Below, in pieces: positions 6,005-22,421 of a stretch of DNA of 49,316 bases. The notes under the pieces were generated by a model. It was not told the origin of the DNA, did no database searches, and saw only the letters and a list, made by a program, of their open reading frames with translations. A program made the translations under genes and the position numbers. Position 1 is the first letter of the stretch; every line of letters begins with the position of its first letter. This DNA comes from a virus. The stretch is taken from IMG/VR virus record IMGVR_UViG_3300036945_000699, positions 1 to 49,316 of that record, one strand, 5' to 3'.

Positions 6005-6007
6005 TAG

Positions 6008-6013
6008 TAAAAT
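6008..6013 (+). promoter_or_regulatory. TAAAAT -10-like element before the 6044 gene
   Basis: The short gap after the large fibre gene holds AGTAAAATATAG, similar to the GGTAAAAT elements found before the genes at 18925, 23443 and, on the minus strand, 28871. No convincing -35 box is seen. A GAGG Shine-Dalgarno sequence follows before the ATG. Confidence 0.3.
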
Positions 6014-6043
6014 ATAGAAGACTAAAGAAAGAGGTCGCCCCAA

Positions 6044-6274
6044 ATGGCTAGCAAGAAGTTCCTAACGCCAATTAACATTGTGCAAGGTTCTGCGTTCCCA
6101 GCGGATGCCGATCAAGGCGACCTCTTTTTTAGGTCTGACATAGGTTCCATGTACACCTATGACGGCACTGGTTGGATATCTATGACCAGCAGTGACGTCA
6201 CAAACGTGGATGGCGGAGACGCCTCAAGCTCTTACAACATCAACTATGACGGTGGCGGACCGTCCTCTTTCTAG
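6044..6274 (+). CDS. Small fibre-associated structural protein
   Basis: A 76-residue protein. Its start (ASKKFLTPINIVQGSAFP) resembles the attachment-type N-terminus of the preceding large fibre, and DADQGDLFFRSDIGSMYTYDG resembles the Gly-Tyr-Tyr strand module of that fibre (SGQIYYNSVDNVLKYYNG). It is therefore probably a free-standing version of that N-terminal domain. The end contains two copies of a short motif, VDGGDASSSY and YDGGGPSSF. Its role may be to cap or connect fibres; this is inference. Confidence 0.6.
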   Translation: MASKKFLTPINIVQGSAFPADADQGDLFFRSDIGSMYTYDGTGWISMTSSDVTNVDGGDASSSYNINYDGGGPSSF

Positions 6275-6292
6275 GAATAGGGAAATAAGACA

Positions 6293-8713
6293 ATGGCAGT
6301 CAGAATTCAATTTAGACGCGGTACCGCCGCTGAATGGGCCTCGGCCAATCCAACGCTAGCCGCTGGTGAGCTCGGTTATGAGACAGATACCGCTCAGATG
6401 AAGATTGGTAACGGGTCTCTTACCTGGAGCGCCCTACCATATAGCGCAGTAAATGAGGCATACGTAGATAACGCGATTGCTAACGTAGTAGGTTTGGCTC
6501 CAGAAACACTGGACACCCTAAACGAGCTAGCTGCCGCGATGGGAGACAACCCAAGTTTTATATCTGACATAGAAGACGACATTGACAGCGCCAGAGCTTA
6601 TGCTACTGGTTACACTGACAACGCAATAGCCAATCTTATCGCTTCAGCTCCTTCAGCTTTAGATACACTGAATGAGCTAGCTAGTGCTTTAGGCTCTGAC
6701 GCTAACTTCAGCACTACAGTAACAACAGCCCTGTCAGAGAGACTTCAGTTTGTGGCTGACAACGTAGCTAACTACGAAGCTAACAACCCAATCATTGATG
6801 AAAACATTCTAGCTATCGAAGTAGATAGCGGAAATGTTAAAATTGGTGACGGCGTAAACGCTTGGAACACTTTAGTTTACGTAAACCAGGCCTTCTTCTC
6901 TGGCATGATCGATGAAGTTTCTGCAGATAAGGTGTCAGAGCACAACTCTGACACAACTGCAGTTCACGGAATAGCTGACACCTCCCTGCTGGTAACTTCA
7001 CCTGTACTAGAAAACGCTATCTCAGATGCGCTAGAGGACTACACGACAACTGATGATCTAGCTAATTCATACGTGAATAACACCACAATAGAGAACTACG
7101 CTCTTTTGACTGACTTAGAGCCTTACGCGACTAACACCAACCTGGACTTGAAGGCCCCTCTAGCAAATCCTACGTTTACTGGCACCGTATCATTGCCAGC
7201 AAGCATCGAGATCAATAACATTAGCATTGGCAATACCACAGCTACAGAGATCTCATACCTTGCTAACGTGACATCTGACGTACAGTCTCAGATTGACGCA
7301 AAAGCCCCTCTAAACTCTCCGTCATTCACTGGAACTGTGTCACTTCCAACAACAACTGACATCGGAAACGTCAGTTCTACTGAACTAGAGCACCTAAATG
7401 GTGTAACTTCAGGAATTCAGGCTCAGCTTGATGGAAAACTTGACTCTTCAACCGCTGCTACAACCTACGCACCGATCTCTAATGCATCGTTCAATGGAAC
7501 TGTGGCTTTGCCTATAATGACATCAATCGGGAATGTCTCGTCTGATGAGCTCGGGTACCTCAATGGGGTAACCTCTGCCATTCAGGCTCAGTTGGACGAC
7601 AAGGCTCCGACTGCTGACCCTACATTTACAGGAACAGTTTCCGGTGTAACTAAGTCCCACGTTGGGCTAGGTGACGTTGACAATACTTCTGACGCAGATA
7701 AGCCAATCTCAACTGCAACTCAGACTGCTCTTGATGCCAAGCTAGATCTAGCTGGTGGAACCCTTACTGGTCCATTGACTCTTTCAGGTGCACCAACTTC
7801 TGACCTACACGCAGCAACAAAGCAGTACGTCGATGGTTTAGCAGCTGGAATTAACTTCCACCAGCCAGTAGTTGCCGCAACCGCAGGTAACCTTGCTGGT
7901 ACATATGACAACGGAACCTCTGGTGTAGGTGCAACCCTTACCAAGGCATCGAACGGTGCAATCGGCACAATTGACGGTGCATCGGTTTCTGTAGGTAACA
8001 GAATCCTTCTACGCGCACAGACTGACGCTAAAGAAAACGGCGTCTATGTGATTACTGCAGTCGGAAGCGCGAGCGCTCCATGGGTTATAACTCGTGCAGC
8101 AGACGCAGACAACAACCCAGCAGGCGAGTTGGCTAACGGAGACTTTGTATTCGTAACAGGCGGTTCAACCAATGGATCAAAGGGCTTTATCTTAAGCACC
8201 ACAGGCACGATCACAATTGGAACAACAGAAGTTAACTACGCCCAGTTCAATGCGTCCGAGGCAATTACTGCTGGAACAAACATCGATAAGACTGGCTCGA
8301 CTATTTCCGTAGTGTCAGACCCGACATTCGCCAATGTTGTGACAGTAAGCTCTGGGATTAAATTCTCTGACAACACTATCCAGACCTCTGCCGGTGTCCC
8401 GTCTTTGACTCAGTTCATTCAGAAGACATCAAGCTACACGCTTGATGCCCTAACTTTGATTGACGAAGTGATCGAGGTAGACAGCTCTTCTGCGACTACT
8501 ATCACAATCCCAACTAACGCGACTCTAGCTTGGCCAGTAGGCGCTTCAGTGGACATTCTTCAAGTAGGAACTGGACAAGTAACAATTGCCGCCGCAGGTG
8601 GAGTTACCTTGAACTTTACGCCAGGAAACAAGCTCAGAACACGTTGGTCAAGCTGTACTATAATGAAACGTGGCACTGACAGCTGGATTCTATACGGCGA
8701 CCTAACCGCCTAA
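6293..8713 (+). CDS. Large tail fibre protein with Mtd-N-like domain
   Basis: Tail fibre of 806 residues. The N-terminus is the Mtd-N-like domain (FRRGTAAEWASANPTLAAGE, ETDTAQMKIGNGSLTWSALPY), paralogous to the 3233-3607 protein. Two repeats of the type IASAPSALDTLNELASALG follow, a motif also present in the 3626 fibre. Three repeats of the type PTFTGTVSLP with SYLANVTSDVQSQIDAKAPL form the shaft (about residues 280-450). Near residue 480 comes the fibre module LTGPLTLSGAPTSDLHAATKQYVD, then a domain paralogous to the 3626 fibre (FHQPVVAATAGNL, NRILLRAQTDAKENGVYV), and a beta-rich tip. Confidence 0.87.
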   Translation: MAVRIQFRRGTAAEWASANPTLAAGELGYETDTAQMKIGNGSLTWSALPYSAVNEAYVDNAIANVVGLAPETLDTLNELAAAMGDNPSFISDIEDDIDSARAYATGYTDNAIANLIASAPSALDTLNELASALGSDANFSTTVTTALSERLQFVADNVANYEANNPIIDENILAIEVDSGNVKIGDGVNAWNTLVYVNQAFFSGMIDEVSADKVSEHNSDTTAVHGIADTSLLVTSPVLENAISDALEDYTTTDDLANSYVNNTTIENYALLTDLEPYATNTNLDLKAPLANPTFTGTVSLPASIEINNISIGNTTATEISYLANVTSDVQSQIDAKAPLNSPSFTGTVSLPTTTDIGNVSSTELEHLNGVTSGIQAQLDGKLDSSTAATTYAPISNASFNGTVALPIMTSIGNVSSDELGYLNGVTSAIQAQLDDKAPTADPTFTGTVSGVTKSHVGLGDVDNTSDADKPISTATQTALDAKLDLAGGTLTGPLTLSGAPTSDLHAATKQYVDGLAAGINFHQPVVAATAGNLAGTYDNGTSGVGATLTKASNGAIGTIDGASVSVGNRILLRAQTDAKENGVYVITAVGSASAPWVITRAADADNNPAGELANGDFVFVTGGSTNGSKGFILSTTGTITIGTTEVNYAQFNASEAITAGTNIDKTGSTISVVSDPTFANVVTVSSGIKFSDNTIQTSAGVPSLTQFIQKTSSYTLDALTLIDEVIEVDSSSATTITIPTNATLAWPVGASVDILQVGTGQVTIAAAGGVTLNFTPGNKLRTRWSSCTIMKRGTDSWILYGDLTA

Positions 8714-8730
8714 TATCAGGGAGAATTTGA

Positions 8731-10086
8731 ATGGCAAAGAAAGAAGCAGGCGCAAAGTCGTCTCAACAGAATGACTTTTTAGCTCCGCTACCTGCAGAAA
8801 ATGTCACTGCTACGGACGTTGGCACAAATAGGCCGTACAATGACGGTCAGTTGACTGTCACTTGGACTATAAATAGCCTGTCGCCTGCTGCTGTCAGCTA
8901 CACAGTTAAAGACTCTGGTGGCAATCAGCTAGGCACAGGATCGCTGCCTTCTCCAGTTAGCGGCGTATACTCGGTTCAAGTCTCTGGACTGTTGTCAGAT
9001 GTCACGTATACAGTAAGTGTAATCCTGACTAATGCATCAGGAGACTCCACTCCATCGGCTGCTTCAGCAGTTAAAGTTACCACGGTGCCACAGACTCCGG
9101 CTAAGCCAGTAGCCACCACTGTTGCTGCTGACTCAGACAACGTTACATGGGTTGCCCCGGCCTCCGGCGGTAAGCTTATAACACTGTACGAATGGGTCTG
9201 TGATGACGGCAAGGCAAACAACACCGCATTAACTTCTATATCTGTAGCCCAGGAAGGTGCTGGGCCTTCTACTAACGCTTATAAAGTTAGAGCAGTTAAC
9301 GCCAATGGCGTATCAGACTATTCAGTTTTCTCGGACTCGGTAGACACCCTACCTCCATTCTTCCCTCCGTTCTTCCCTCCATTCTTCCCTCCATTCTTCC
9401 CTCCGTTCTTCCCTCCGTTCTTCCCTCCGTTCTTCCCTCCATTCTTCCCTCCATTCTTCCCTCCGTTCTTCCCTCCGTTCTTCCCACCGTTCTTCCCGCC
9501 TAGATTCCCGTTCTTCCCTCCGTTCTTCCCACCGTTCTTCCCGCCTAGATTCCCGTTCTTCCCACCTAGCTTCCCGTTCTTCCCGCCTATTTTCCCTGCA
9601 CACCGTTGTATTGCAGAAGGCACATTGGTGGACACCCCTCGTGGAAAGATTCCAGTCGAGCAGCTGCAAGCTGGCGACATGGTTCTATCTGTGATAATTG
9701 ATGAACTATCCGCTGAGGACAACACCCCAGGCGAGTTCTCAATCGGTTCATCGCTAACCCTATCTGGTGCAAAGGCCGTAGAGACTCAGGTGACTGCAAT
9801 CCTTGAGACCATCAAGACTGCAATTGTCTACTTCAATGGCAACGATGCAGCTAAGTACTCTGCAGAGCAGCCTCTGTTCGTGAAGGTTGGAGACTCTTAC
9901 GAGGTTAGACTAGCTGGCAAGTTGGCCGTAGGCGACCACCTGATTAAGGTGGACGAGGACGGTACTTCATCAGAAGAGCTAATCACCGAGGTCACCACCC
10001 TAGACACACCTACCAAGGTGTACCAGATATCGTGTGACCCATACCACTGGTTTATTGCCGGTGGGTACCTATCTCACAATAAGTAA
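8731..10086 (+). CDS. Fibronectin III protein with FFPP repeat and C-terminal Hint domain
   Basis: Structural protein of 451 residues in three parts. Residues 20-205 hold two fibronectin type III-like domains (VTWTINSLSP, VTWVAPASGGKLITLYEW). Residues 208-290 are a proline/phenylalanine repeat with 17 FFPP units, 12 of them consecutive. Residues 293-451 form a Hint (intein/hedgehog-type) domain: Cys293 opens CIAEGTLVDTPRGKIPVEQL, and the end VYQISCDPYHWFIAGGYLSHNK matches the last block with His-Asn. In the middle block, AEQPLFV has Gln where most Hint domains have His. Such a domain normally cuts or splices the peptide bond before its first Cys. It is the last gene before a terminator. Confidence 0.88.
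   Translation: MAKKEAGAKSSQQNDFLAPLPAENVTATDVGTNRPYNDGQLTVTWTINSLSPAAVSYTVKDSGGNQLGTGSLPSPVSGVYSVQVSGLLSDVTYTVSVILTNASGDSTPSAASAVKVTTVPQTPAKPVATTVAADSDNVTWVAPASGGKLITLYEWVCDDGKANNTALTSISVAQEGAGPSTNAYKVRAVNANGVSDYSVFSDSVDTLPPFFPPFFPPFFPPFFPPFFPPFFPPFFPPFFPPFFPPFFPPFFPPFFPPRFPFFPPFFPPFFPPRFPFFPPSFPFFPPIFPAHRCIAEGTLVDTPRGKIPVEQLQAGDMVLSVIIDELSAEDNTPGEFSIGSSLTLSGAKAVETQVTAILETIKTAIVYFNGNDAAKYSAEQPLFVKVGDSYEVRLAGKLAVGDHLIKVDEDGTSSEELITEVTTLDTPTKVYQISCDPYHWFIAGGYLSHNK
9352..9594 (+). repeat. In-frame 12-bp tandem repeat encoding FFPP
   Basis: Units of the type TTCTTCCCTCC(A/G) repeat in frame. Positions 9361-9420 and 9421-9480 are identical 60-base blocks of five units each, showing a recent higher-order duplication. 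A second, longer unit with RFP instead of a full repeat occurs twice near 9500 and 9548. Reverse-strand reading frames rich in Arg and Glu here are artefacts of the repeat. Confidence 0.95.
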
Positions 10087-10091
10087 CAACT

Positions 10092-10129
10092 AAAAAAGTA
10101 GCCGCCCACCACCGGGCGGCTATTTTTTT
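10092..10129 (+). terminator. Intrinsic terminator after the first fibre block
   Basis: A 9-base-pair GC-rich stem (TAGCCGCCC/GGGCGGCTA) with loop ACCACC is followed by seven T residues and preceded by six A residues, so it could work in both directions. It separates the fibre block from the oxygenase operon. Confidence 0.92.
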
Positions 10130-10138
10130 ATACTAAGA

Positions 10139-10190: not shown

Positions 10191-10925
10191 ATGAACCACT
10201 GGTTTACGAAAGATCGTTCAGAGACAATCACAAACACCATGGGGGATAGGACTATCCACAGCGGTATTTCTGTCATAAACCCAGCTATGGGTATAAATAT
10301 CTATAGGGGAGCTATAACCAAGGAGACTGGGCAGAAGCACATCGACACCTTGGAGTCAAACCTAAACGGTCAAACTTCCTTCTCTTGGGCAGGGGCCCAG
10401 GTCACTAACTCTGATGAAGTGGATCTAGAGGCTAGAAATGCAAAAGATTTTAAGTTTAACTCTAAGGGACTAGGACCTAGAAACGAAGAGAATGAAAAAC
10501 TCTACGATATGCACGAGGAAGTTTTTCAGGCAGTTCGTGCTTGCGTGAATGACTACGGTAATTACTGGGGCGTAGGAATGAATTTCTACGAAGCATTTAA
10601 TTTCGTTAAGTACGAAGGCGCTGGAACTCACTTTAAAGTTCATGCTGACCACGGTCCAACTTACGTATGTACCGTCTCGGTAGTGGTCTACCTAAATGAC
10701 GACTATGAGGGTGGCGAAATAATTTTTCCTAGATTCAACCTAACCCACAAACCGCAGGCTGGCGACATTATTATCTTCCCATCGACGTATGTCTACGAGC
10801 ACTCATCTGAAGATATGATTTCTGGAACTAAGTACGCAGTTGTGATTATGACCGACTATAATGACAGAGACGACGTAAACCACCGAGTGCCGCAAACAAT
10901 CCAAGAATACGAACTTAAATACTAG
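10191..10925 (+). CDS. Fe(II)/2-oxoglutarate oxygenase, prolyl-4-hydroxylase-like (1 of 8)
   Basis: Member of the double-stranded beta-helix oxygenases, which use Fe(II), O2 and 2-oxoglutarate to hydroxylate a substrate. The catalytic core is in the C-terminal half: His151 and Asp153 (VHADHG), distal His204 (YEHSS) and Lys214 (SGTKY) for 2-oxoglutarate. The family motif YLNDDYEGGEIIFP and the block PQAGDIIIFPS lie between them. The N-terminal 100 residues differ from the other seven copies and may set substrate choice. All catalytic residues are present. It is the first gene of a 12-gene operon, with AAGGAAA before its ATG. The substrate is unknown; neighbouring fibre repeats are candidates. 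Confidence 0.88.
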   Translation: MNHWFTKDRSETITNTMGDRTIHSGISVINPAMGINIYRGAITKETGQKHIDTLESNLNGQTSFSWAGAQVTNSDEVDLEARNAKDFKFNSKGLGPRNEENEKLYDMHEEVFQAVRACVNDYGNYWGVGMNFYEAFNFVKYEGAGTHFKVHADHGPTYVCTVSVVVYLNDDYEGGEIIFPRFNLTHKPQAGDIIIFPSTYVYEHSSEDMISGTKYAVVIMTDYNDRDDVNHRVPQTIQEYELKY

Positions 10926-10936
10926 ATCGAGGAACA

Positions 10937-11707
10937 GTGTCAGAAGAATCCCTAAAGCCTTCGGAAGATTCTGCTGCAGAAGCAGAGCAGAAGAGTCAAG
11001 AAGAGCAAAAAAATATTCAAAATCGACTAGCAAACTGGTATCAAGTAGACGAGGTTACATGGAGCTCTGCTGAAGAAGTATCTCCTGGCAGCGGAATCTG
11101 GGTATATCACGACGTTCTTCCTGAAGATATGAATATCATTCAGAGAATAGAAGAAGTCATAGATAGCCCAGATAACGACTATGAGTACCAAGAAGCGATG
11201 GTTGGGTACTCCATGAAAATACCGGAGTATCGCGACTGCGTTGATTTTAAATACAAAGAGAACGATTTTGATCACGATCAAAGCGAGTGGGGCGACAAGC
11301 TAAGGCAGCTAGCTAGAGATACTAAATACCGTCAGTTGCAAGTAGTGAAGGACTACACTCGTCGCTACAACATCGGAGAGCTTCGTTACTGGGAAGCAAC
11401 TAACTACGTACGATATGGCGTAGGGCAGCACTTCCAGGAGCACCACGATCACGGCTACTCATATAACTGCGTAGTCTCTCTAGTAGCGTACCCAAATGAC
11501 GACTACGAGGGTGGGGAGCTTTTCTTTAGACTACAAAACATAAGTGCAAAAGCTCGCGCCGGCGATGTGTTTATTTTCCCATCTAACTTTATGTACCCTC
11601 ACAGGGCTATGCCGGTTAGGTCAGGGACTAAGTATTCAATGGTAACTATGCTCGACTACTCCGACAAATACCACAGCGCAGAATTCTTCAGGGATACAGA
11701 CAGCTAA
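10937..11707 (+). CDS. Fe(II)/2-oxoglutarate oxygenase, prolyl-4-hydroxylase-like (2 of 8)
   Basis: A 256-residue oxygenase of the same family. The metal ligands are His169 and Asp171 (EHHDHGYSY) and His222 (YPHRA); Lys232 (SGTKY) would bind 2-oxoglutarate. YPNDDYEGGELFF and ARAGDVFIFPS are the core strands. It begins at a GTG with an upstream GAGGAA. The N-terminal 30 residues are acidic and Gln-rich, without a predicted fold. It is closest to the first copy: both share a pattern of N-x-V-[KR]-Y before the first ligand and a trailing MLDYSD/MTDYND. The stop codon overlaps the next start by one base. Confidence 0.88.
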   Translation: MSEESLKPSEDSAAEAEQKSQEEQKNIQNRLANWYQVDEVTWSSAEEVSPGSGIWVYHDVLPEDMNIIQRIEEVIDSPDNDYEYQEAMVGYSMKIPEYRDCVDFKYKENDFDHDQSEWGDKLRQLARDTKYRQLQVVKDYTRRYNIGELRYWEATNYVRYGVGQHFQEHHDHGYSYNCVVSLVAYPNDDYEGGELFFRLQNISAKARAGDVFIFPSNFMYPHRAMPVRSGTKYSMVTMLDYSDKYHSAEFFRDTDS

Positions 11708-12453
11708 TGAAGCAGATCTCAGTACAGAAGCTATTTCCACCAGGTCAAAATGCTGACATATATCAGCTACCAGCACGTAGACCATGGATGGATGATACCG
11801 AAAATAAGCACGCGTACATGTGCTTCCCACTGAATATCACCAACCGCCTAGGCTGGGCAATCTCGTTCCCCGAGGACATTAGATTTATCTGGGATGGCAT
11901 AACAGATACAACGCCAGACCACATTACGATACTTGAAGGTGAAAAATTTTTAAGTAGGTCTAGGGGTAATGCAACTATCGGATTTCTCACTGGTCTAAAA
12001 TTTACGACCGACGAGAAAACAACAATGTTGGCGATGCCAGTGCCAAACCTATTTGTACGCGGGGCCCAGTGCTACACCACTTTGATGAGCACCTCTTTCT
12101 ACTTCCACATGCTGCCAATTGCTTGGAGGCTTACTGAACCGAATGTAGAGATATATATCCCTGCAGGGACACCAGTAGCAACTGTTATCCCAATCTCGCT
12201 TACTGACTTAGAAGAGAATTACGAGTTGACTATAAACGAAACGCCAGCATCCGCCGAGTACTGGGAAGAAGTGACTAAATATGGAGATGCCAACGAAATA
12301 AAAAGCGGTGTTGGCGACTGGTCAAAGATGTACAGAGAAGGAGTAGACTACACTGGTGCTCCTGTTGGCTCACACGAGACAAAATCTATAAAACTAAAAA
12401 CCGTCACATGCCCATTTACCGGTAACTCCTACGAGGTAGAGGACGTGGAGTAG
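11707..12453 (+). CDS. DUF6065 family protein
   Basis: A 248-residue protein that I recognise as DUF6065, a family of unknown function in bacteria and phages. The pattern is ARRPWMDDTENKHAYMCFPL, then NITNRLGWAISFPEDIRFIWDG, with VEIYIPAGTPVATVIPI near residue 155. The last 30 residues (HETKSIKLKTVTCPFTGNSY) are additional. No catalytic motif can be named. It is embedded in the oxygenase operon, overlapping the gene before it and directly abutting the next, so it probably acts in the same process. The following gene shares its IPAGTP block. Confidence 0.6.
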   Translation: MKQISVQKLFPPGQNADIYQLPARRPWMDDTENKHAYMCFPLNITNRLGWAISFPEDIRFIWDGITDTTPDHITILEGEKFLSRSRGNATIGFLTGLKFTTDEKTTMLAMPVPNLFVRGAQCYTTLMSTSFYFHMLPIAWRLTEPNVEIYIPAGTPVATVIPISLTDLEENYELTINETPASAEYWEEVTKYGDANEIKSGVGDWSKMYREGVDYTGAPVGSHETKSIKLKTVTCPFTGNSYEVEDVE

Positions 12454-13194
12454 GTGGAAACTAAAAAGATTAAATTTGTAATAAATAGACCATGGCTTAA
12501 TAGAGACAGCGACTCGGCCCCAAAGCCAGTAATCAAGACTATCCCTGACTGGTACAGAAACGGGGACAGGTTTGCCAAACATCCGATGACAGGGGAGTAT
12601 TGGAAGGATCCGCAAAATGGCGGAAAAATTCCAACATGGAAGTCATGCCCATCGGTGTACGACATCATGGGATCTGGTTACGTATATCGTACGCCCTGCG
12701 ACATAGAGTTTAAAGAAAACGTATACGGCCAAATAGAAGCAAAAGTATTAGACGAGAAGAATAAAGATTTTCTACAAGTCAGAATGCCTATGCCAGGATT
12801 TAAAGCACCAATGGGCTACCATGAAGTTCATTTTGCATGGTGGGCAGATTGGGCAGTGGAGCTCCCAGCGGGATACAGTGCACTGTACTCTCAGCCTTTC
12901 AATAGATTCGAGCTGCCGTTCATAACTACCAGTGGAATTATTGACAACGACAAGGTTCATCTACCTGGAACAATGCCATTTTTTGTGGCTAAAGGGTTTC
13001 AAGGCATCATCCCTGCAGGAACTCCATACGCTCAGATCATACCGTTCAAGCGAGAAAGCTGGGAATCCGAGATTGTAGACTCCATGAGCTATGACGATAT
13101 GGTCAAAAAGAACATGGAAAATAGTGAAAAATATAGAGTACCAGATGGCGGCGTATATCAAAGAGACGTCTGGGAACGACGCAAGTACGAATAA
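12454..13194 (+). CDS. DUF6065-related protein
   Basis: A 246-residue protein related to the preceding one in the second half: GFQGIIPAGTPYAQIIPFKRE parallels VEIYIPAGTPVATVIPI. Its N-terminal half opens with INRPWLNRDSD and PKPVIKTIPDWYRNG, and the middle is rich in aromatic residues (HFAWWADWAVELPAGYSALY, FNRFELPF). It starts at GTG directly after the preceding TAG, without a gap. The two genes are probably diverged tandem duplicates, or two subunits of one complex. The function is unknown; a cupin-like beta fold is possible but I see no metal-binding His pattern. Confidence 0.55.
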   Translation: METKKIKFVINRPWLNRDSDSAPKPVIKTIPDWYRNGDRFAKHPMTGEYWKDPQNGGKIPTWKSCPSVYDIMGSGYVYRTPCDIEFKENVYGQIEAKVLDEKNKDFLQVRMPMPGFKAPMGYHEVHFAWWADWAVELPAGYSALYSQPFNRFELPFITTSGIIDNDKVHLPGTMPFFVAKGFQGIIPAGTPYAQIIPFKRESWESEIVDSMSYDDMVKKNMENSEKYRVPDGGVYQRDVWERRKYE

Positions 13195-13208
13195 GGTAGG
13201 ATAAACTA

Positions 13209-13877
13209 GTGAATAAAGAATATGCAAATAACGACATTGTCCCCTATGCGTCAATCACTCCGTCAGGGTTTTTTGGTGATTCTCCGGACAATATTGTTGC
13301 AATAGAAGACTTTATGACGGATGAAGAGCTCACCTATTTAAACAATTTTGCAAAGAATAACGAACTTTGGGACGTAACGGAGACTCATTACAGCGACGAC
13401 GGAACTGTAATCTACGATTCAAACTACTGGGACCACCGAGTGGCCACTGCACCCCTCCTAAAAGAGGCCGACCCTAGAGTAGTAGAACTTATTTCAAATA
13501 TGCAAGCTCGACTAAAAGAGAGAGTAGACGAGTTCTTTAGCGTAGACGCCCACCCAACTAGTCCGGCAATTGTTAGATGGCTGCCAGGTCAGCGTCAGCA
13601 ACCTCACGCAGACAAGGAGCTCCACGAGGGTGACGGTAGAGGTAAGCCTAATGATTTTCCTTACTACGACATTTCAGGGCTTTTCTATCTGAACGATGAG
13701 TACGAGGGCGGAGAGCTCTATTTCCCTAACCAGGGAATCCAGTTCAAACCTAAGGCCGGAGCCGCGTATTTCTTCCCAGGGGATATGAATTATATCCATG
13801 GAGTCACAGAAATCAAGTCTGGAATTAGATACGTTTGTCCATTCTTTTGGACCGTCAAATCCCACAATTCAAAATAA
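13209..13877 (+). CDS. Fe(II)/2-oxoglutarate oxygenase, prolyl-4-hydroxylase-like (3 of 8)
   Basis: A 222-residue oxygenase. Ligands: His133 and Asp135 (PHADKE), distal His197 (IHGVT), and Arg207 (SGIRY) instead of the Lys seen in most other copies. LNDEYEGGELYFP and KPKAGAAYFFPG are the core motifs. The N-terminal half has the typical opening NIVAIEDFMTDEELTYLNNF of classical prolyl-4-hydroxylase-like phage proteins, so this copy is closer to the common family than copies 1 and 2. The start is GTG with AGGTAGGA upstream. Confidence 0.88.
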   Translation: MNKEYANNDIVPYASITPSGFFGDSPDNIVAIEDFMTDEELTYLNNFAKNNELWDVTETHYSDDGTVIYDSNYWDHRVATAPLLKEADPRVVELISNMQARLKERVDEFFSVDAHPTSPAIVRWLPGQRQQPHADKELHEGDGRGKPNDFPYYDISGLFYLNDEYEGGELYFPNQGIQFKPKAGAAYFFPGDMNYIHGVTEIKSGIRYVCPFFWTVKSHNSK

Positions 13878-13917
13878 CATATAGAATTAAACTAGACAAA
13901 GAGAGTTAGGGCATAAA

Positions 13918-14697
13918 TTGCATTTAGCAAAAAAGCTACACGAAGAAGTTTTCCTGTACGAAGATGTTTTCGCTGATCCTGACGGACTTATACGCCTAAT
14001 CGAAGAGCTAGACGAAGACGAAACCACTCACTCTGTAATCCCAGAATGGGGATTCTGGTTCTCAAACAGCCGCGATGGTCACAGCTTTGGCAGCAAAAAA
14101 GACTTTGCACCCGAAAGACTTTCGGAACTAGAATCATCTCGCAAGGCTGACGTGGAGAAGGTAGTCACTACCATTCAGAAAGCAATCCGCGATGTAGCCG
14201 AGGGGTACTATCGTGACCGTGGCCTAGAAGGCGAACCTAACATGTCACCATTCGCCGGTGTTATGAAGTATCGACCAGGCTGCGAGATGGGCGCACACTT
14301 TGATGCTCAGGCTGGCGACAGAACTTTAAAGTATTCGATTGTTCTCTATTTGAATGACAACTATGAAGGCGGAGAGATCTCTTTCATTGTCCGCCCTTAT
14401 GACTTAAGAAATCCAAAAAATTTCCACCTTCAGCCTATTCCAGATGCAGATGACGAGAGAAATGCAGAGCTTGTTGACTTTACCCTAAAACCTAAAGCCG
14501 CATCTGCTCTAATCTTCCCGTCTACTCACCCATTTAAGCACCAGGTCCACATAGTTAAAAGTGGAGATAAGTATATCTTCCCAGGTTTTGTCTTCAAGGA
14601 AGACTTTAACCCAGAGGACGATGACTCAAGACGAGAGTACAACGCTGGGTCGCTATACGAGACACCAGAAGAAGGAAAGTACTTAGACGAAGATTAG
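13918..14697 (+). CDS. Fe(II)/2-oxoglutarate oxygenase, prolyl-4-hydroxylase-like (4 of 8)
   Basis: A 259-residue oxygenase. Ligands: His127 and Asp129 (GAHFDAQAG), distal His208 (FKHQVH), Lys218 (SGDKY). YLNDNYEGGEISF is followed by an insertion of about 45 residues, longer than in most other copies, before KPKAASALIFPS. The start is TTG; the next in-frame candidates would delete the conserved opening VFLYEDVFADPDGLIRLIEE. A gap of 40 bases, the largest in the operon, precedes it, and its ACATATAGAATTAAACTAG could contain an internal promoter. Confidence 0.87.
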   Translation: MHLAKKLHEEVFLYEDVFADPDGLIRLIEELDEDETTHSVIPEWGFWFSNSRDGHSFGSKKDFAPERLSELESSRKADVEKVVTTIQKAIRDVAEGYYRDRGLEGEPNMSPFAGVMKYRPGCEMGAHFDAQAGDRTLKYSIVLYLNDNYEGGEISFIVRPYDLRNPKNFHLQPIPDADDERNAELVDFTLKPKAASALIFPSTHPFKHQVHIVKSGDKYIFPGFVFKEDFNPEDDDSRREYNAGSLYETPEEGKYLDED

Positions 14698-14700
14698 TCT

Positions 14701-15318
14701 ATGTATGAAGTTTTAGCCCCCGAGGTTCTTTATTTTCCGAGTTTTCTATCTGACCACGCCAAATTTATAGAAACTGTAAATGCAACGTCTGCTTGGTCTG
14801 AGTGGAAACCTAATGATCACTCCATTAGCGGGTTCTCCTACGGCACGTTAAAAACTTTTGGCACCCATGAGTACAGAGATATCGTAGAACCTCTAAACAA
14901 AAACAATGTCAGATACATAGTTAATACGGTAAAAAAAGTAAACCTAATTTGCGGCTACGAATACTTAAAGAGCCAAAATGCATCGCACGCAGAGATTGAT
15001 AACTTTAAAAAATCTGTACTTTTAGATAAAATAACTATTGGTATCAAAAAATATCGTGAAAATGGCCCAGCCCTGGGGCCGCATCCGGACACTGATCTAG
15101 ATAATCCTAGAGACGAATTCAGTATAACCTTTTACCCAAACGACGCATATGAAGGCGGAGAGTTGAACTTTCCGGATATTGGCGTATCAGTGAAGCCTAA
15201 AGCTGGCAGTGTGGTAGTATATCCATCGAAGCACATACACGAGTCCCTGCCAGTATCCTCTGGAGAGAAGTATGTGACTAACTATGTATATCTAGCAGCG
15301 GAGAAATTGTGGAAATAG
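14701..15318 (+). CDS. Fe(II)/2-oxoglutarate oxygenase, prolyl-4-hydroxylase-like (5 of 8)
   Basis: The shortest copy, with 205 residues. Ligands: His128 and Asp130 (GPHPDTD), distal His180 (IHESL), Lys190 (SGEKY). YPNDAYEGGELNFP and KPKAGSVVVYPS are the core strands. It opens with EVLYFPSFLSDHAKFIETVN, and its arrangement is closest to the next gene: both have a Trp-rich strand near residue 35, a long helix, and GPHxD at the metal site. It lies three bases after the preceding stop and overlaps the next gene by 10 bases. Confidence 0.87.
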   Translation: MYEVLAPEVLYFPSFLSDHAKFIETVNATSAWSEWKPNDHSISGFSYGTLKTFGTHEYRDIVEPLNKNNVRYIVNTVKKVNLICGYEYLKSQNASHAEIDNFKKSVLLDKITIGIKKYRENGPALGPHPDTDLDNPRDEFSITFYPNDAYEGGELNFPDIGVSVKPKAGSVVVYPSKHIHESLPVSSGEKYVTNYVYLAAEKLWK

Positions 15319-15965
15319 AATACAAGATACCGTATGAAAATGTAGTATATTTCCCGGGAATAGTCGACAACATTGACGACATCATCGAGGCAATAGAGAC
15401 GACAAATAGCCTTGCAATCTCCCCTTGGGAAGTCTGGTATGCAAGTAGCGACACCTCTGGATACGCATACGGCGAAGTTAAGTCCATGAGTAAGCAGCTG
15501 ATTAAAAACGAATCAGATCCAACTATTGTTGAAAAGTCTGAATACATAATTTCTACTCTGGTAGACGCCATGTCAACTGCAGCTCAGAAGTATTCTGAGA
15601 TATACAACATTGATCAAGCCCTTTTAGATTACGCATTATACGCATTGAACATGGACGGCACTAAGTACGGCATAAACAAGTACTACGAGCGCATGTACAT
15701 GGGGCCGCACGTTGACTGGAACGAGCAAAATTCAGACATCACATACACAATCGTGGTATATCTTAATGATGATTACGAGGGTGGCGAACTATTCTTCGTG
15801 GACCCGGAAATCAATGTAAAAATCAAACCTGAGAAGGGCAGCATCGTGATGTTCCCATCTACATTGCCCTACCTACACCAATCCTGCGACATTATTAATG
15901 GAAGAAAAATGCTTATAACGCATCACTGGAAAAATGATTCGCTAATAAAAAGAGACGAGTTTTAA
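15309..15965 (+). CDS. Fe(II)/2-oxoglutarate oxygenase, prolyl-4-hydroxylase-like (6 of 8)
   Basis: A 218-residue oxygenase. Ligands: His134 and Asp136 (GPHVDWN), distal His190 (YLHQS), Lys200 (NGRKM). VYLNDDYEGGELFF and KPEKGSIVMFPS are typical. The GTG start lies within the end of the preceding gene. It shares the general plan N-VVYFPGIV-...-SPWEVWYAS with copy 5, suggesting a tandem duplication that has diverged. The stop codon overlaps the start of the TauD-like gene by one base. Confidence 0.87.
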   Translation: MEIEYKIPYENVVYFPGIVDNIDDIIEAIETTNSLAISPWEVWYASSDTSGYAYGEVKSMSKQLIKNESDPTIVEKSEYIISTLVDAMSTAAQKYSEIYNIDQALLDYALYALNMDGTKYGINKYYERMYMGPHVDWNEQNSDITYTIVVYLNDDYEGGELFFVDPEINVKIKPEKGSIVMFPSTLPYLHQSCDIINGRKMLITHHWKNDSLIKRDEF

Positions 15966-16798
15966 TGGAAATTCCAGTACTCAACTTCAACAGTAAGTCA
16001 GAGCTATACTCCGACCTCGAAGCAGTGAAAGAGAAGTACATCTCTAGTGGAATCGTAGTGCTCAGGGGTCTACACTTCACCGAAGCTGAGCAAGGGGAGC
16101 TAACCCTATCTCTTGGTGATTTAATTGGATGGTTCCCTAACCACAGCAGCAGTGATATTGGACGAAAGTACACGGAAAGCCACGCCGGTAACCAGAATGT
16201 TGCTGGATCAAAAGGTGACCAGATCGTTCTAGATTGGCACATAGAGCACGTAGACTATGACCAGCAGTGCCCCCTAGTGGCAGGCCTTTGGAACATGTGG
16301 CACTTCAACTGCGCCCCGGGGACTGGTTTGACCTATTTCGTAGATACTACAGAAGTATTTAAGCTTTTAACCGAGGAAGAGCAGAACTTCCTCTTCTCTA
16401 GTGAAATTTCATGGGTCGATGCGTATGGTTTTGGCCCCCATCGAGGCATGGCAATAGTTCCTCACTGGTTGACCAATATTCCTACTATACGTATAGAAAT
16501 AACCAAGCACGTAAAAACAGAACTGGTAGCTATCGGCGGAGAGACCCCGGATGAGTCTCAACTTTCCGAGTTCAAGCGTATCTATACAAAGATTATCGAA
16601 CTCATAGAGACTAACCAAGACATACGAATGACTCACCAGTGGGAACACGGAGACATCGTAATCCCCGATTTATTTAAGCTAGCGCACGCAGTTACTGGTG
16701 GATTTGACCCTAAAGATCGGTCATTCACTGGACACTGGCTATTCTCCAAAGACCCAACCGCACTGACAGACGAGGAGCTCCCTTATGCCTGGAGATAA
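15965..16798 (+). CDS. TauD/TfdA-like Fe(II)/2-oxoglutarate dioxygenase
   Basis: A 277-residue protein from a different oxygenase branch, the TauD/TfdA family, whose members act on small molecules such as taurine, clavaminate precursors or amino acids. The metal site is His92 and Glu94 (DWHIEHVDYD) with distal His241 (LAHAVTGG); Arg252 (DPKDRSF) fits the 2-oxoglutarate-binding arginine. SSGIVVLRGLHFTEAEQ at the N-terminus and GDIVIPDLFKLAHA near the C-terminus are family blocks. It overlaps both neighbouring genes, so it is a true member of the operon. It may hydroxylate a free amino acid or a sugar precursor rather than a protein. Confidence 0.82.
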   Translation: MEIPVLNFNSKSELYSDLEAVKEKYISSGIVVLRGLHFTEAEQGELTLSLGDLIGWFPNHSSSDIGRKYTESHAGNQNVAGSKGDQIVLDWHIEHVDYDQQCPLVAGLWNMWHFNCAPGTGLTYFVDTTEVFKLLTEEEQNFLFSSEISWVDAYGFGPHRGMAIVPHWLTNIPTIRIEITKHVKTELVAIGGETPDESQLSEFKRIYTKIIELIETNQDIRMTHQWEHGDIVIPDLFKLAHAVTGGFDPKDRSFTGHWLFSKDPTALTDEELPYAWR

Positions 16799-17666
16799 TG
16801 AAATAGAAATTATCGGAGACTTTACTGTAAAAAAATTAGACCCTAAAATCTGGGTATTCAGCAAAGCTATACAGAATCCAGATAAGTTGGTTGACTACTA
16901 CGTTAATGATCCAATCAATGCAGACAGATGGGTGCCTTGGTATACATTTGGCGATATGATCAGCGACAACGGACCCGGGCTACACAATATGCCAAACTTC
17001 CCCACTAAAGAGGAGTGGATGTCTAACTTTGAGCATTGCGATGACCCGTATAAGGTTCAACTAGCTGATGCATTTTACGATGCTTCTGCCATCTACGTAG
17101 AGGGTACTAAGGTATCTCTAGACAACTGGGAGTCACCTAACTGGGGAATCGCCAGGTACTTTCCAGACGTGGAGGATTTTTCAGGTGGAAGAACTATGCA
17201 GTACCACACTGACTATCAGCAAGATAGAAAAGAATACCCCGGCCCAAAGAACATGATCACTGCTGTCGGCTACCCAAACGATGATTATGAAGGTGGCGAA
17301 ATAGCATTTCGTATCGTAAAAGAGGGAACAGCAGATGAAGTAGAGAGAGAAATTATCTACAAGCCAGAAGCTGGCGATTTAGTAATATTTCCTTCTGTAT
17401 TCCCGTACTATCACGGCGTTCTAAACGTAAAGAAGAACCCTAAATACATCATAAGATTCTATTGGAACTCTGTAGAAGAGTCGACTGAAGACTACAAGTA
17501 CTTCTCTGATAAATATAAAGATAACTGGGAACAGCTAGAACTAATCAGACGCAAAAGAGACAAAGCCATGGTGGAGGATCCAGTACTAAGGCTCAGAGTC
17601 TCTATGCGAGAGTATTACGAAATGCTAGAAGCCGGAACTTTAGATGCTTATTTCGAGGACCTATAA
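16785..17666 (+). CDS. Fe(II)/2-oxoglutarate oxygenase, prolyl-4-hydroxylase-like (7 of 8)
   Basis: The longest copy of this type, with 293 residues. Ligands: His141 and Asp143 (QYHTDYQQD), distal His210 (YYHGVL), Lys220 (NPKYI). GYPNDDYEGGEIAF and KPEAGDLVIFPS are typical. The C-terminus carries about 60 extra, charged and helical residues after the core (residues 232-293), absent from the other short copies. The start overlaps the TauD-like gene by 14 bases. Confidence 0.87.
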   Translation: MPGDNEIEIIGDFTVKKLDPKIWVFSKAIQNPDKLVDYYVNDPINADRWVPWYTFGDMISDNGPGLHNMPNFPTKEEWMSNFEHCDDPYKVQLADAFYDASAIYVEGTKVSLDNWESPNWGIARYFPDVEDFSGGRTMQYHTDYQQDRKEYPGPKNMITAVGYPNDDYEGGEIAFRIVKEGTADEVEREIIYKPEAGDLVIFPSVFPYYHGVLNVKKNPKYIIRFYWNSVEESTEDYKYFSDKYKDNWEQLELIRRKRDKAMVEDPVLRLRVSMREYYEMLEAGTLDAYFEDL

Positions 17667-17668
17667 AT

Positions 17669-18136
17669 ATGTCTGATTTAAATATGACAAACCAGACAAT
17701 GGTAGAAGAATTTAAAGCTAGAGCAGCATCTGGTAGGGGCGACTCCTATATGTTGACTATCGCCAGAGATGGCGAGTCCCCAGTGAGATCTATATACTTC
17801 TATGACAATGCAATAGACGCCGCTATTGGATATGAAGCCTACACGGACTGGGGATTCGCTAAGGATTTCCTGACCGTAGAACTTTACGAACCAACCGGTA
17901 GAGTACACACTAAAGTTCTTAGACGCCCGCGCGGCGGCGAGTGTGTGTTCGAAAGGGCTCAGTACTACAGAATAGCTGAAATACTAAACGCCGCTAAACC
18001 AAAAGTTGACGAAGAAACCTTTAACTATCTAGCCTACGAGTTTGCTAAGCTATTCTCAAAGGACAACCAAAGATTTCAAGTAGACCGTTTTCTAACAGAC
18101 CTAGGCTATACAGGAGAGACTAATGACCAACATTGA
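17669..18136 (+). CDS. Unknown protein within the oxygenase operon
   Basis: A 155-residue protein that I do not recognise. It has no membrane segment and no metal motif. A compact alpha/beta part (DSYMLTIARDGESPVRSIYF, then AIDAAIGYEAYTDWGFAKDF, LTVELYEPTGRVHTKVLRRP) is followed by a helical part (residues 105-155). The strand-helix-strand pattern with a Tyr-rich middle could be a small binding domain. It lies two bases after copy 7 and overlaps copy 8 by 14 bases, so it is co-translated with both and may be an adaptor or substrate-binding partner. That role is a guess from position only. Confidence 0.6.
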   Translation: MSDLNMTNQTMVEEFKARAASGRGDSYMLTIARDGESPVRSIYFYDNAIDAAIGYEAYTDWGFAKDFLTVELYEPTGRVHTKVLRRPRGGECVFERAQYYRIAEILNAAKPKVDEETFNYLAYEFAKLFSKDNQRFQVDRFLTDLGYTGETNDQH

Positions 18137-18860
18137 GACTACACCAACAGAGTTTGGCGATAAGGGCTACCTAAAAGACGACATAATCTTTTATGACAAC
18201 TTCCTCACCGAAGAAGAGGCGGAAAAAATTATAGCCTTCTTCGAAGATCCGGAGCAGCCATGGAGCATGTCTGCATTCTTTGAATCCTACGGCATGAGTA
18301 TCATGCCTCAGGATCCACTCCTAGAGAAGTACGGACTATCAATTGACTACTTGGGTAAACTAGCAGATCGCATGCACAAGGCGGTCGAGGATGCTCATCT
18401 TCGTCCAGTTAAATCAGTATCTTCTCACGCCCAGAAGTGGAATGTTGGTGCATTTGCCCCTTTCCACTCTGACAACACTGACATGGATGGCAACTGGTCA
18501 GCCTGGGAGAAGAGTAAGCTTGTCTGCTTGCTGTATATCAACGATGACTACGATGGTGGAGAGCTCAATTTCAGGGACCACCCGATCAAGCTAAAGCCAA
18601 AGGCTAGACAGCTAGTTACATTCCCTGGAGGCATAAACAATGTTCACGAGGTCACCGTAGTCGAAGGATCAACCCGCCACACAATTGGTGCTTTCTGGGA
18701 CTATGCCGAGTCTACATACTCCGAAGAACGCATGAAAGAATGGGAAGACGAGATCTCCAAGGTCCGTGAAGAGCAGAAGGTCATGCAGGATGAGTGGAAA
18801 GATCAGCTGGATAAGGGAGTACACCCCCTTAAAGACGGCGGAAGCCAGGGCGGCTACTAA
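18123..18860 (+). CDS. Fe(II)/2-oxoglutarate oxygenase, prolyl-4-hydroxylase-like (8 of 8)
   Basis: A 245-residue oxygenase and last gene of the operon. Ligands: His115 and Asp117 (PFHSDN), distal His175 (NVHEV), Arg185 (GSTRH). YINDDYDGGELNF is the only copy with Asp instead of Glu in the fourth-last position of this motif; KPKARQLVTFPG follows. It opens with IIFYDNFLTEEEAEKIIAFF, like copy 3, and these two use Arg as the 2-oxoglutarate ligand, forming a subgroup. A charged helical tail of about 45 residues follows the core. Confidence 0.88.
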   Translation: MTNIETTPTEFGDKGYLKDDIIFYDNFLTEEEAEKIIAFFEDPEQPWSMSAFFESYGMSIMPQDPLLEKYGLSIDYLGKLADRMHKAVEDAHLRPVKSVSSHAQKWNVGAFAPFHSDNTDMDGNWSAWEKSKLVCLLYINDDYDGGELNFRDHPIKLKPKARQLVTFPGGINNVHEVTVVEGSTRHTIGAFWDYAESTYSEERMKEWEDEISKVREEQKVMQDEWKDQLDKGVHPLKDGGSQGGY

Positions 18861-18924: not shown

Positions 18925-19299
18925 ATGGGTTATCTCCGCGGCAATATGCACGATCTGATTACGGACCAAGGATCTACCGTACATCAGGTGTTTGGCATAA
19001 AAAATTCAGCTCGCAGGGTCATTGCTCTTACAGGGTATACGGCTCGTATGCAAGTCAGACAATGGGACACGGAAAACAGGGATCCAGCGCCCATCGTAAT
19101 CGCCGAATACACCACAGAGAACGGCTATTTAACTATAAATGAATCCGCAGGGTCAGTGACTCTTTTAATTCCGCCTGCAGATATGGCTGCATACGAGCCC
19201 AAAACTTATGTATATGACATCGAAATCGAGTCGTCAGATGGCGAAACTACTCGAATCATTCAAGGTAAATTTATAGTGAGAGCCGAGGTTACCAAATAA
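18925..19299 (+). CDS. BppU-like N-terminal fibre/baseplate protein, second copy
   Basis: A 124-residue paralogue of the 2054-2416 product, sharing [42 protein letters not shown] and the end [14 protein letters not shown]. The ATG is supported by AAGGA eight bases upstream. It is the first gene of the second fibre block. Its stop codon overlaps the start of the collagen-like gene by one base, exactly as in the first block, so the pair BppU-like plus collagen-like gene is a duplicated unit. Confidence 0.75.
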
Positions 19300-22200
19300 T
19301 GGCACTCTCCGACAACTTTGCATATGTTGACGTAAAAGGTCCAGGCCCACAGGGTCCAGCAGGTCCGACTGGTCCGGCTGGTCCAGCAGGTGGCCCTACA
19401 GGCCCAACAGGTACTTCTGGTGCCACTGGTGCCACTGGTGCCACTGGTGCGACTGGTGCCACTGGTGCGACTGGTGCAGCTAGTACTGTTCCAGGACCAA
19501 CCGGTGCTATCGGCCCAACCGGTGCAACCGGTGCAACAGGTGCGTCAGGTAGCGATGGCTCTGACGGCGCTGTAGGACCTACTGGTCCAACTGGCGCGGC
19601 TGGGTTGACCGGCCCAACAGGTGCTACTGGTGCTTCTGGTCTACCTGGTCTCTCTATTACAGGTCCAACCGGTGCCGCAGGTGCAGCTGGTGCAACTGGT
19701 GCAACCGGTCCAACAGGTGCTCAAGGTCTTGCTGGTTTATCAATTACAGGTCCAACCGGTGCTACAGGTGCCGCAGGTTCAGTGGGTCCAACAGGTGCTA
19801 CTGGTGCCACAGGTACGTCCGGTCTATCAATTACCGGCCCAACAGGCGCTACTGGTGCTCAAGGCGCTACTGGTCCAACAGGCGCTACGGGTGAGACTGG
19901 TGCCACTGGTGCCGCAGGCGCAGATGGTATTGATGGTTCAGATGGTTCAGATGGTTTAGACGGTGCAACAGGTCCAACTGGTGCCGCAGGTGCTACCGGC
20001 CCAACAGGTGCTACTGGTGCTCAAGGTATCCCTGGTCTCTCTATTACTGGACCCACAGGGGCTACAGGAGCTACTGGTGCTACTGGTGCCACTGGTGCCA
20101 CTGGTTCTCAGGGTCTAGCTGGTCTATCTATTACTGGCCCTACAGGTACAGCGGGTCCAACGGGTGCAACCGGACCTACCGGCGCAACAGGTGCCCAAGG
20201 TCTAGCGGGTCTTCAAGGTATTCAAGGGGAGCTAGGACCTACAGGTGCAACTGGAGCTACCGGTCCCGAGGGTAATTTTTATGTCTCATCTTCGCCGCCA
20301 CTATCTCCAGAAGCTGGAGACGCTTGGTTTAATGACTCTGAAGCAAAATTTTACATCTATTACGATGGTTTTTGGGTTGAAGTAAATGCAAACCGAATAG
20401 GTGCAACAGGACCCACTGGATCAATAGGCCTAACCGGGCCAACCGGACCTCAGGGCATTAGCATAAGCTTTATTGGAACTGTTGCAATTCCTGAAGATCT
20501 ACCAGATACCGGCAACGAGCTGAATGATGCATACATCGTCATTTCGGATGGTGACCTATATGTTTGGGATGGATCAGACTGGAACTCTGTCGGCCAGATA
20601 GTGGGGCCTCAGGGTGAGGTCGGAGCAATTGGTCCTACTGGTGCTCAGGGCGAAATTGGAGAGACTGGTCCAACCGGCCCTATCGGTGCTACTGGTCCTA
20701 CTGGTGCTACCAACGAGCTTAGCGTAGGTGAAGTACTCACCGGTACACCGGGTGGGGATGCTCAGGTAACTATAACTGGCACTGCCCCAAATCAAACTGT
20801 AGATTTTATAATTCCACAGGGTCCAACCGGATTAACCGGAGACACAGGGCCTCAGGGAGACACTGGACCAACAGGGTCCCAGGGAGATACTGGACCAACA
20901 GGGCCTCAGGGAGAGCAAGGTGTCACAGGGGACACCGGACCCACAGGTGCAGTTGGCGAAACAGGCCCTCAGCCGTGGACTTTTATAGAGGCCTATGACA
21001 ATGGCCACTACTACACTATTGGCGATGCAGTGACCTATCAGGGTGGCTTCTACTACCGCACGGGGAATCCAGGAAATCCGGGGTATCCGCCAGAGCCAGG
21101 AACTATCAATGCTTCTTGGACTCCAGTTGCTGACCGAGGCGAGACCGGACCGACTGGTCCAACTGGTGCTCAGGGGCAAGTTGGTGAGACTGGCCCTACA
21201 GGATCTACAGGAGACACCGGACCGACTGGTCCAACTGGTGCGCAGGGCGATCAAGGTATCCAAGGTGAGACAGGTGACACCGGCCCGACTGGCACTCAAG
21301 GCGACACTGGTCCAGGATTTATTTTTGCTGGGCAGTGGGATTTCAACGCCGCATTCTCTGAGGGCGATGTAGTCCGAGACGACTCATTGAACCTATATGT
21401 TGCAGTGCAGGATGTGCCTCAGACATGGGCTGCGCTCAATGACACCAACTACTGGGCACCGTACTTATCAAGCGTTGTGGGCCCGACAGGTGCAACTGGT
21501 GATATTGGACCACAGGGTGATGTCGGATCTACCGGACCTCAGGGCGATCTAGGCCCAACGGGCGCACAAGGCGACCTAGGTCCTACTGGCCCAACGGGAG
21601 CAACAGGTCCGACGGGAGATCAGGCAAACATAACAAACGCCGATACTCCACCAGCCGACCCTTACGACATGCAACTGTGGTATGACACTAGTAATAACAG
21701 ACTATTCATTTGGTATGTAGATATCGACAGTGCCCAGTGGGTCGAAGTGGCTGCATCAATTGCAGGCCCGACCGGAGCAGCCGGCGTTACCGGGCCTACT
21801 GGCCCTAACGGAAGTGATGGTGTAGACGGAGACACAGGGCCAACTGGCCCCCAAGGTGCAACTGGATCTACAGGTGCAGTAGGTCCAAGCGGTGCCACTG
21901 GAGACACTGGTCCAACTGGTGCGCAGGGCGATCAAGGTATCCAAGGTGAGACGGGAGCCACTGGTCCGACTGGTGCCACTGGCGCTATCGGCGAGACTGG
22001 TCCAACTGGTGCTCAGGGGTCGGCAGGAGAGGCTGGACTTACTGGCGATACAGGACCGGCTGGCGATACAGGACCTACTGGTGCTACTGGTGCTACCGGC
22101 CCAACTGGAGGATTTAACTCTGCTCAAACGGTGTCGGTCTTATCTTCGAATTACAGTATCTTATCGACAGACGCTGGTGTTCTATATACCTCTTCGGCGG

Positions 22201-22421
22201 CTATAACTGTAACTGTAAACAACGTTCTGAATGTTGGAGAGCAGATTGATTTTATTCAAATGTCTAGCCAAGAAGCGGATCAAATAACTTTCGTGCAGGG
22301 CTCGGGAGTTAGTTTAGTGTCTAGAAACTCAAGCACCAAAACCGGAGGTCTATACGCAGCAGCATCAATTAAGTGTGTTGCATCTGGCGTATACGTACTA
22401 ATCGGAGATCTGATCTCGTAA
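19299..22421 (+). CDS. Collagen-like tail fibre protein, 1040 residues
   Basis: Long fibre built of Gly-X-Y repeats, mostly GPT, GAT, GPQ and GDT. The first stretch covers residues 14-325. Globular inserts interrupt later stretches near residues 325-365 ([20 protein letters not shown]), 386-437 ([19 protein letters not shown]), 471-508, 558-614 ([18 protein letters not shown], like a chitin-binding module), 671-728 ([17 protein letters not shown]) and 775-822 ([17 protein letters not shown]). The last 100 residues form a beta-rich tip ([20 protein letters not shown]). Prolines are nearly all in the X position and Thr is often in Y. Such repeats form triple helices; Thr in Y is glycosylated in Bacillus BclA. 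It is the main candidate substrate of the upstream oxygenases. Confidence 0.9.
19419..19472 (+). repeat. 9-bp tandem repeat in collagen-like gene
   Basis: Six units of GGTGCNACT encode (GAT)6. Units 4 and 6 carry G instead of C at the third base of the Ala codon. Confidence 0.9.
21225..21292 (+). repeat. 68-bp block shared with the 23709 gene
   Basis: These 68 bases are identical to 24609-24676 in the second collagen-like gene. The first 47 bases also occur unchanged at 21906-21952. The identity covers third codon positions, so it reflects recent exchange rather than selection on protein alone. Confidence 0.9.

Follow-up and report, generated by a model that had tools for sequence, protein, structure and literature searches.

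Association of a phage array of nine 2-oxoglutarate oxygenases with an upstream FFPP-repeat protein, a candidate substrate for prolyl hydroxylation

Prolyl hydroxylase genes are among the commonest auxiliary genes of aquatic viruses, P4HA having been encountered in 62% of the water samples from the Baltic; what viruses use their prolyl 4-hydroxylase (P4H) for has been called cryptic (PMC9301287). Cyanophage S-SCSM1 encodes 24 2-oxoglutarate (2OG)-Fe(II) oxygenases (PMC9602691), and a viral P4H, vCPH (PDB 5c5u), has been described for PBCV-1 (Eriksson et al. 1999, cited in PMC9301287). The Skp1 pathway of Dictyostelium and Toxoplasma combines a PHD2-like prolyl hydroxylase with the hydroxyproline N-acetylglucosamine (GlcNAc) transferase Gnt1 (PMC11570480), and the P4H of Bacillus anthracis hydroxylates collagen-like peptides at prolines in the X and Y positions, bacterial collagens typically having Thr at Y and folding without hydroxyproline (PMC8968730). 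This paper describes a run of 12 genes on the plus strand, at 10191-18860, of a 49,316-base virus record (IMG/VR IMGVR_UViG_3300036945_000699, a fragment, hereafter called the window), which contains nine 2OG oxygenase genes and is preceded by a gene for a protein with an FFPP repeat. The array is read here, with moderate confidence, as a phage prolyl-hydroxylation module for the phage's own surface-type proteins, with the [FY]FPP tract of the protein encoded at 8731-10086 as its main substrate. Multi-copy 2OG oxygenases in phages are already known; the coupling to FFPP repeats, on which no relevant phage paper was found in the literature, provides a concrete, testable candidate substrate for why phages carry prolyl hydroxylases.

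The locus resembles T4-like cyanophages such as S-SCSM1 in having many PF13640 oxygenases, some of them among tail-fibre genes (in S-SCSM1, seven are interleaved with such genes, some in runs of three to four), and differs in that the S-SCSM1 oxygenases are scattered over the genome. The substrates of PBCV-1 vCPH are peptides from proline-rich repeats in viral proteins, and to our knowledge PBCV-1 has its prolyl hydroxylase as a single enzyme. The likeness lies in a virus-encoded protein prolyl hydroxylase, matched by the structure model of array member A3 (Table 1) with Z 15.6; PBCV-1 is, however, an algal virus, whereas the group of the window consists of tailed phages with 4-12 enzymes per array, coupled to FFPP repeats. 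The Skp1 pathway shares with several relatives of the window a PF11397 transferase beside PHD2-like hydroxylases (the name of PF11397 being tied to the Skp1 hydroxyproline GlcNAc-transferase), but it concerns a single proline of a cytosolic eukaryotic protein; in the phages, the candidate target is an extended repeat tract in what is probably a fibre. Finally, the B. anthracis P4H (PDB 3itq) belongs to the bacterial P4H family and is weakly matched by A2 (E = 4e-4); it differs by its collagen-like target and by having no multi-gene array.

The preliminary description of the window, which was confined to 10191-18860, had implied the collagen-like fibre repeats as target of the enzymes. These are the weaker candidate; the constant partner of the array is the FFPP-repeat protein, the gene of which lies directly 5' of the array and outside those coordinates. 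Relatives were collected by one scan of IMG/VR with A2, which returned at least 80 related loci from uncultured water phages, many of the records being fragments. An FFPP-type open reading frame (ORF) was present upstream of the array in all 35 relatives with at least 4.5 kb of DNA 5' of A2, and the same ORF search pattern gave no match in the control loci (120 with collagen repeats, 37 random). In the window, the tract follows fibronectin-III (FN3) sequence and spans approximately residues 209-290 of the product (DNA 9355-9600); in the relatives it consists of FFPP or YFPP with RFPF and SFPF variants.

As selection on hydroxylases had to be avoided, viral contigs with FFPP repeats were fetched solely by a DNA pattern coding for FFPPFFPPFFP, with (GPT)3 collagen repeats, a random 15-mer and a fibre motif of the major-tropism-determinant N-terminal domain (Mtd_N) as controls, and near-duplicates were removed; the counts are those among the matches listed. 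A profile trained on the array members detected hydroxylases in 40 of the 53 deduplicated FFPP loci (2.74 per 10 kb), compared with 10 of 114 collagen-repeat loci (0.13 per 10 kb), 3 of 54 Mtd_N-fibre loci (0.05 per 10 kb) and none of 26 random loci (Fisher p = 5e-18, 1e-14 and 2e-11, respectively). This profile finds three of the seven annotated S-SCSM1 oxygenases, the missed ones including other Pfam types, and because it missed four of them PF13640, an independent model, was applied to the main comparison as well. Over whole records, this model was matched in 32 of the 34 with FFPP repeats, mostly by 6-10 copies each, versus 3 of the 34 with collagen repeats (p = 2e-13). Close homologues of A1, A2, B1 and B2 are missing from half of the FFPP loci, and 32 of these 61 still have hydroxylases; in many other phages an A3-like copy is the hydroxylase closest to the FFPP gene. 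Relative to the FFPP ORF, hydroxylases are found downstream at a ratio of 28:1. Moreover, real FFPP proteins were present in four contigs from bacterial genomes, three of which had hydroxylases, and chance matches to the pattern had none.

Three phages that share the replication genes of the window and lack FFPP repeats have no PF13640 genes at all. This bears on a further explanation, in which the oxygenases would act on the infected host, by changing its 2OG levels or metabolism or by modifying one of its proteins, for instance EF-Tu. A host-directed role has already been proposed for cyanophages (PMC9602691), and the Pseudomonas putida P4H, a structural neighbour of A3, binds EF-Tu (4iw3); a metabolic role, however, predicts neither the tight genomic linkage with FFPP repeats and with fibre genes nor the absence of the enzymes from close phages without FFPP, and we consider it very improbable.

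Collagen-like genes are located downstream of the array in the window (19299-22421 and 23709-28211) and adjoin it in 17 of the 25 relatives with enough downstream DNA, so that the array could be thought to hydroxylate these fibres as animal collagen P4Hs do, thereby stabilising triple helices. Proline is common at the X position of the collagen-like proteins of the window (66 of 208 triplets), and the B. anthracis enzyme takes prolines at X as well as Y (PMC8968730). Because a Bacillus enzyme thus also hydroxylates X positions, the collagen-like proteins are, by analogy, a possible second substrate. As main target they were tried and weakened by the Y-position counts and the collagen-repeat controls: the Gly-X-Pro triplets of a collagen P4H system are nearly lacking, with proline at Y in 3 of 325 triplets and lysine at Y in none, and collagen-repeat phages seldom carry hydroxylases, in loci as well as in whole records (see above). 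Furthermore, in the clade of L060, L067, L083 and L086, which possesses both array and FFPP protein, there is a different gene of 1,227 amino acids and no adjacent collagen gene. Hydroxylation directed at collagen in the animal manner is therefore regarded as improbable.

The preliminary description had reported one 8.7-kb operon of nine oxygenases with overlaps or gaps of at most 40 bases. All nine genes are present at their positions and the measured spacing is -14 to +40 bases, but the run actually holds 12 genes: by profile search, eight PF13640 P4H-type genes, one TauD-type gene and three genes that are not 2OG oxygenases (Table 1). Considering the ligands, the profile matches and the selection on these genes, the earlier observation was right, and "nine oxygenases in a twelve-gene run" is the better name. 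The genes form a tight cluster and are probably co-transcribed, and the array is far above chance, random viral contigs having approximately 0-0.03 such hydroxylase genes per 10 kb.

Table 1. Coordinates of the FFPP-repeat gene, the boundary hairpin and the genes of the array in the window.
Feature	Coordinates	Strand	Evidence
Candidate substrate: FN3 - FFPP repeat - C-terminal Hint	8731..10086	+	fn3 E=2e-6; Hint_2/PT-HINT weak; repeat read directly
Intrinsic-terminator-like hairpin, FFPP gene/array boundary	10098..10130	+	GTAGCCGCCCACCACCGGGCGGCTATTTTTTT read directly
A1, P4H-type (core)	10191..10925	+	PF13640 E=6.5e-11; ligands H151 D153 H204 K214
A2, P4H-type (core)	10937..11707	+	PF13640 E=8.5e-13; weak phmmer match to B. 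anthracis-type P4H, E=4e-4
B1, DUF6065, core companion	11707..12453	+	PF19541 E=2.1e-25; predicted dUTPase-like fold
B2, core companion	12454..13194	+	phrog_7084 E=1.8e-33; no Pfam match
A3, P4H-type (core)	13209..13877	+	PF13640 E=9.7e-9; model pLDDT 91, PHD2 Z 16.9
A4, P4H-type (variable)	13918..14697	+	PF13640 E=1.1e-10
A5, P4H-type (variable)	14701..15318	+	PF13640 E=3.4e-10
A6, P4H-type (variable)	15309..15965	+	PF13640 E=1.5e-13
T, TauD-type oxygenase with HxE	15965..16798	+	PF02668 E=1.8e-16
A7, P4H-type (variable)	16785..17666	+	PF13640 E=1.1e-9
C, orphan, non-oxygenase by sequence	17669..18136	+	Pfam, PHROG and NCBIfam searches all blank
A8, P4H-type (frequent)	18123..18860	+	PF13640 E=1.5e-8

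The profile searches proposed earlier were performed with PF13640 and PF02668; the former is matched by eight copies with 35.9-51.9 bits (cut-off 27), the latter by one. The core motif NDxY[ED]GGE, previously called almost unchanged, is present in 8/8 P4H-type copies, as are the metal and 2OG ligands, HxD...H plus K/R. Gene T has HxE (WHIEH) rather than HxD, which is kept in its homologues, and its WHIEH and HAVTG...R motifs were read directly. Among 523 homologues, the iron triad and the basic 2OG ligand are intact in 513; the other 10 have no aligned residues at these positions, and no substitutions were found. The ratio of non-synonymous to synonymous substitution rates (dN/dS) between the window and relative L011 was 0.016-0.13 for all nine oxygenases, indicating strong purifying selection. 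Given the intact ligands and these dN/dS values, all nine oxygenases are probably active, as had been proposed.

Structure comparison of the P4H-type copies was carried out for A3, and its model (predicted local distance difference test, pLDDT, 91) shows the double-stranded beta-helix core in full. Nearly all of the top PDB matches are protein prolyl hydroxylases; the best is PHD2 (6nmq; Z 16.9, root-mean-square deviation (rmsd) 2.9 over 163 aligned residues), followed by P. putida P4H (4j25; Z 16.2), human P3H1 (8k0m; 16.2) and PBCV-1 vCPH (5c5u), and a Trichoplax PHD is also matched. The model supports the assignment of A3 as a protein prolyl hydroxylase; the fold alone cannot decide it, because PiuC scores in the same range (Z 16.2).

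In the relatives, the order A1-A2-B1-B2-A3 is fixed in all loci that are long enough, among the matches listed, which is also the scope of the following counts per array and per record. A1, A2 and A3 occur in essentially all loci, the remaining hydroxylases being patchy, and 3' of A3 there is a variable set of hydroxylases, often followed by C, A8 and fibre genes. Complete arrays have 4-12 hydroxylases out of 26 families, and the PF13640 matches of a whole record number up to 15; the TauD-type gene was found in 10 of 48 relative records. Nine such genes in one operon had been presented as without known precedent, and this did not hold, as arrays this large are usual for the phage group and S-SCSM1 was already known to have 24 oxygenases. 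For most copies of the window, identity to the counterpart elsewhere is 63-97%, whereas over full length they reach at most about 33% with their own neighbours. As each copy thus resembles its equivalents from other phages far more than the remaining copies of the window, the duplications predate the phage group.

The array sits among fibre genes in the relatives as well, in line with the context suggested earlier, and each hydroxylase might act on its own fibre or virion protein, with the FFPP protein as only one of many substrates. The strongly divergent N-terminal halves, the patchy distribution of 26 families around a fixed core, the several fibre genes flanking the array and the interleaving of oxygenases with tail-fibre genes in S-SCSM1 agree with such a division of labour, in which the variable copies would diversify along with tail-fibre adaptation. 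The divergence had earlier been taken to argue for different substrates or for successive action on a single one, and either may apply. However, Mtd_N tail-fibre loci without FFPP seldom have hydroxylases (5/111), versus 5/7 of those with FFPP (p = 3e-5). The explanation by many substrates, which overlaps in part with the one centred on the FFPP tract, as do the confidences attached to them, is considered rather unlikely.

If the FFPP tract is the main substrate, the following sequence of events can be envisaged. The FFPP protein would be made late, together with the fibres, and would be flexible and exposed. The PHD2/P4H-like enzymes A1-A8 would hydroxylate its prolines, with A1-A2-A3 as conserved core; different contexts of the repeat, different positions or neighbouring fibres would fall to the variable copies. 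In some relatives, a PF11397-type transferase, judged from its family, could then add GlcNAc to hydroxyproline, and more speculatively the modified tract might serve as a stiff, soluble or adhesive fibre segment for host attachment. Multi-enzyme protein hydroxylation, possibly followed by glycosylation, would in that case join the ways in which phages modify their own surface proteins, and hydroxyproline would be expected in viral particles of aquatic samples. A more far-reaching version, which we find unlikely, holds that a surface aromatic-proline polymer is formed, with long [FY]FPP tracts that are hydroxylated by an enzyme series, in some phages decorated with O-GlcNAc, and Hint-processed in the window. 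Its logic would be comparable to that of plant extensins or mussel adhesive proteins, and, if true, it would represent a virion modification pathway not previously described in phages.

The PF11397 GlcNAc-transferase was found in 10 of 49 records searched and stands directly before A1 in eight relatives; in L014 it scores 81.7 bits (cut-off 21), and the protein had no PDB match. In L014, L018 and L022, genes between the FFPP gene and A1 (5703-6494, 6790-7398 and 8642-9235, respectively) have HxD...H...R motifs and no Pfam match, and by these motifs they are possibly a further divergent 2OG oxygenase family.

Several observations weigh against the FFPP tract as main substrate of a hydroxylation module. 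The window record, a fragment, has no PF11397 transferase for glycosylation of the Skp1 type, and the activity of PF11397 in the relatives is uncertain because in the FFPP-adjacent copies the Asp of the DxH motif, present in other copies, is replaced by Cys. Four to 12 enzymes are not obviously needed for one FFPP protein. In cyanophages, 2OG oxygenases are numerous next to fibre genes too, and near the S-SCSM1 oxygenases no FFPP-type proline-rich tract was present in the region examined. The FFPP contigs are partly related and thus not fully independent. Hydroxylase copy number correlates with proline number (Spearman 0.57-0.60), but the correlation vanishes under independent contrasts (r = 0.07, p = 0.70), and a tracking of proline number by copy number was therefore rejected. 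It is only by its fibre-gene neighbours that the FFPP protein is placed in the virion. Finally, a terminator-like hairpin separates the FFPP gene from the array, so that a shared transcript is not required and is indeed argued against; a strong hairpin occurs at the equivalent site in most relatives that were folded. Such an arrangement would suit a structural protein that is strongly expressed and enzymes that are expressed less.

The Hint (intein-like) domain of the FFPP protein (RCIAEGTL...HNK, window 9604-10083) occurs in a minority of the relatives, and in phages having this domain the FFPP protein may undergo self-cleavage or become attached covalently. Some contigs have two FFPP-repeat ORFs, in tandem in L126 and L140 and approximately 10 kb apart in L155. 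In the window, a fibre gene with an Mtd_N domain (6293-8713) lies directly 5' of the FFPP gene.

The companion genes B1 and B2 (11707-13194) are conserved as strongly as the core hydroxylases. The B1 model (pLDDT 83) matches the dUTPase 3zf0 with Z 11.2 and rmsd 5.1 over 122 residues (VIA), and since the model is dUTPase-like, DUF6065 as a hidden 2OG oxygenase was rejected. The B2 family, phrog_7084, is also matched weakly by B1 (4e-4), and B2 is probably distantly related to B1, the pair, with its predicted dUTPase-like fold, being enclosed by hydroxylases. By tblastn, neither DUF6065 nor a full-length counterpart of A2 was found in cultured phages.

No near DNA match to the window was found among phage records. 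The DNA polymerase of the window is 73% identical to that of DSL-LC01, a metagenome-assembled phage with Actinomycetia as predicted host, and identities to large Microbacterium phages are 46-57%; DNA polymerase and primase point to phages of Actinobacteria. No tRNA-Pro gene was found in the array or FFPP loci. The nearest cultured phages, Zooman and Pumpernickel (L503 and L504), both without FFPP repeats, have three (ggg, cgg and tgg) beside the DNA polymerase gene. A GT2-type glycosyltransferase with TPR repeats (phrog_13126, beta-1,4-glycosyltransferase) is encoded at 35796-36860 of the window and could act on modified proteins. Finally, phrog_3531, phrog_2954 and cyanophage RefSeq features labelled "ferrochelatase" match sequences of the 2OG-oxygenase type, which looks like annotation carry-over.

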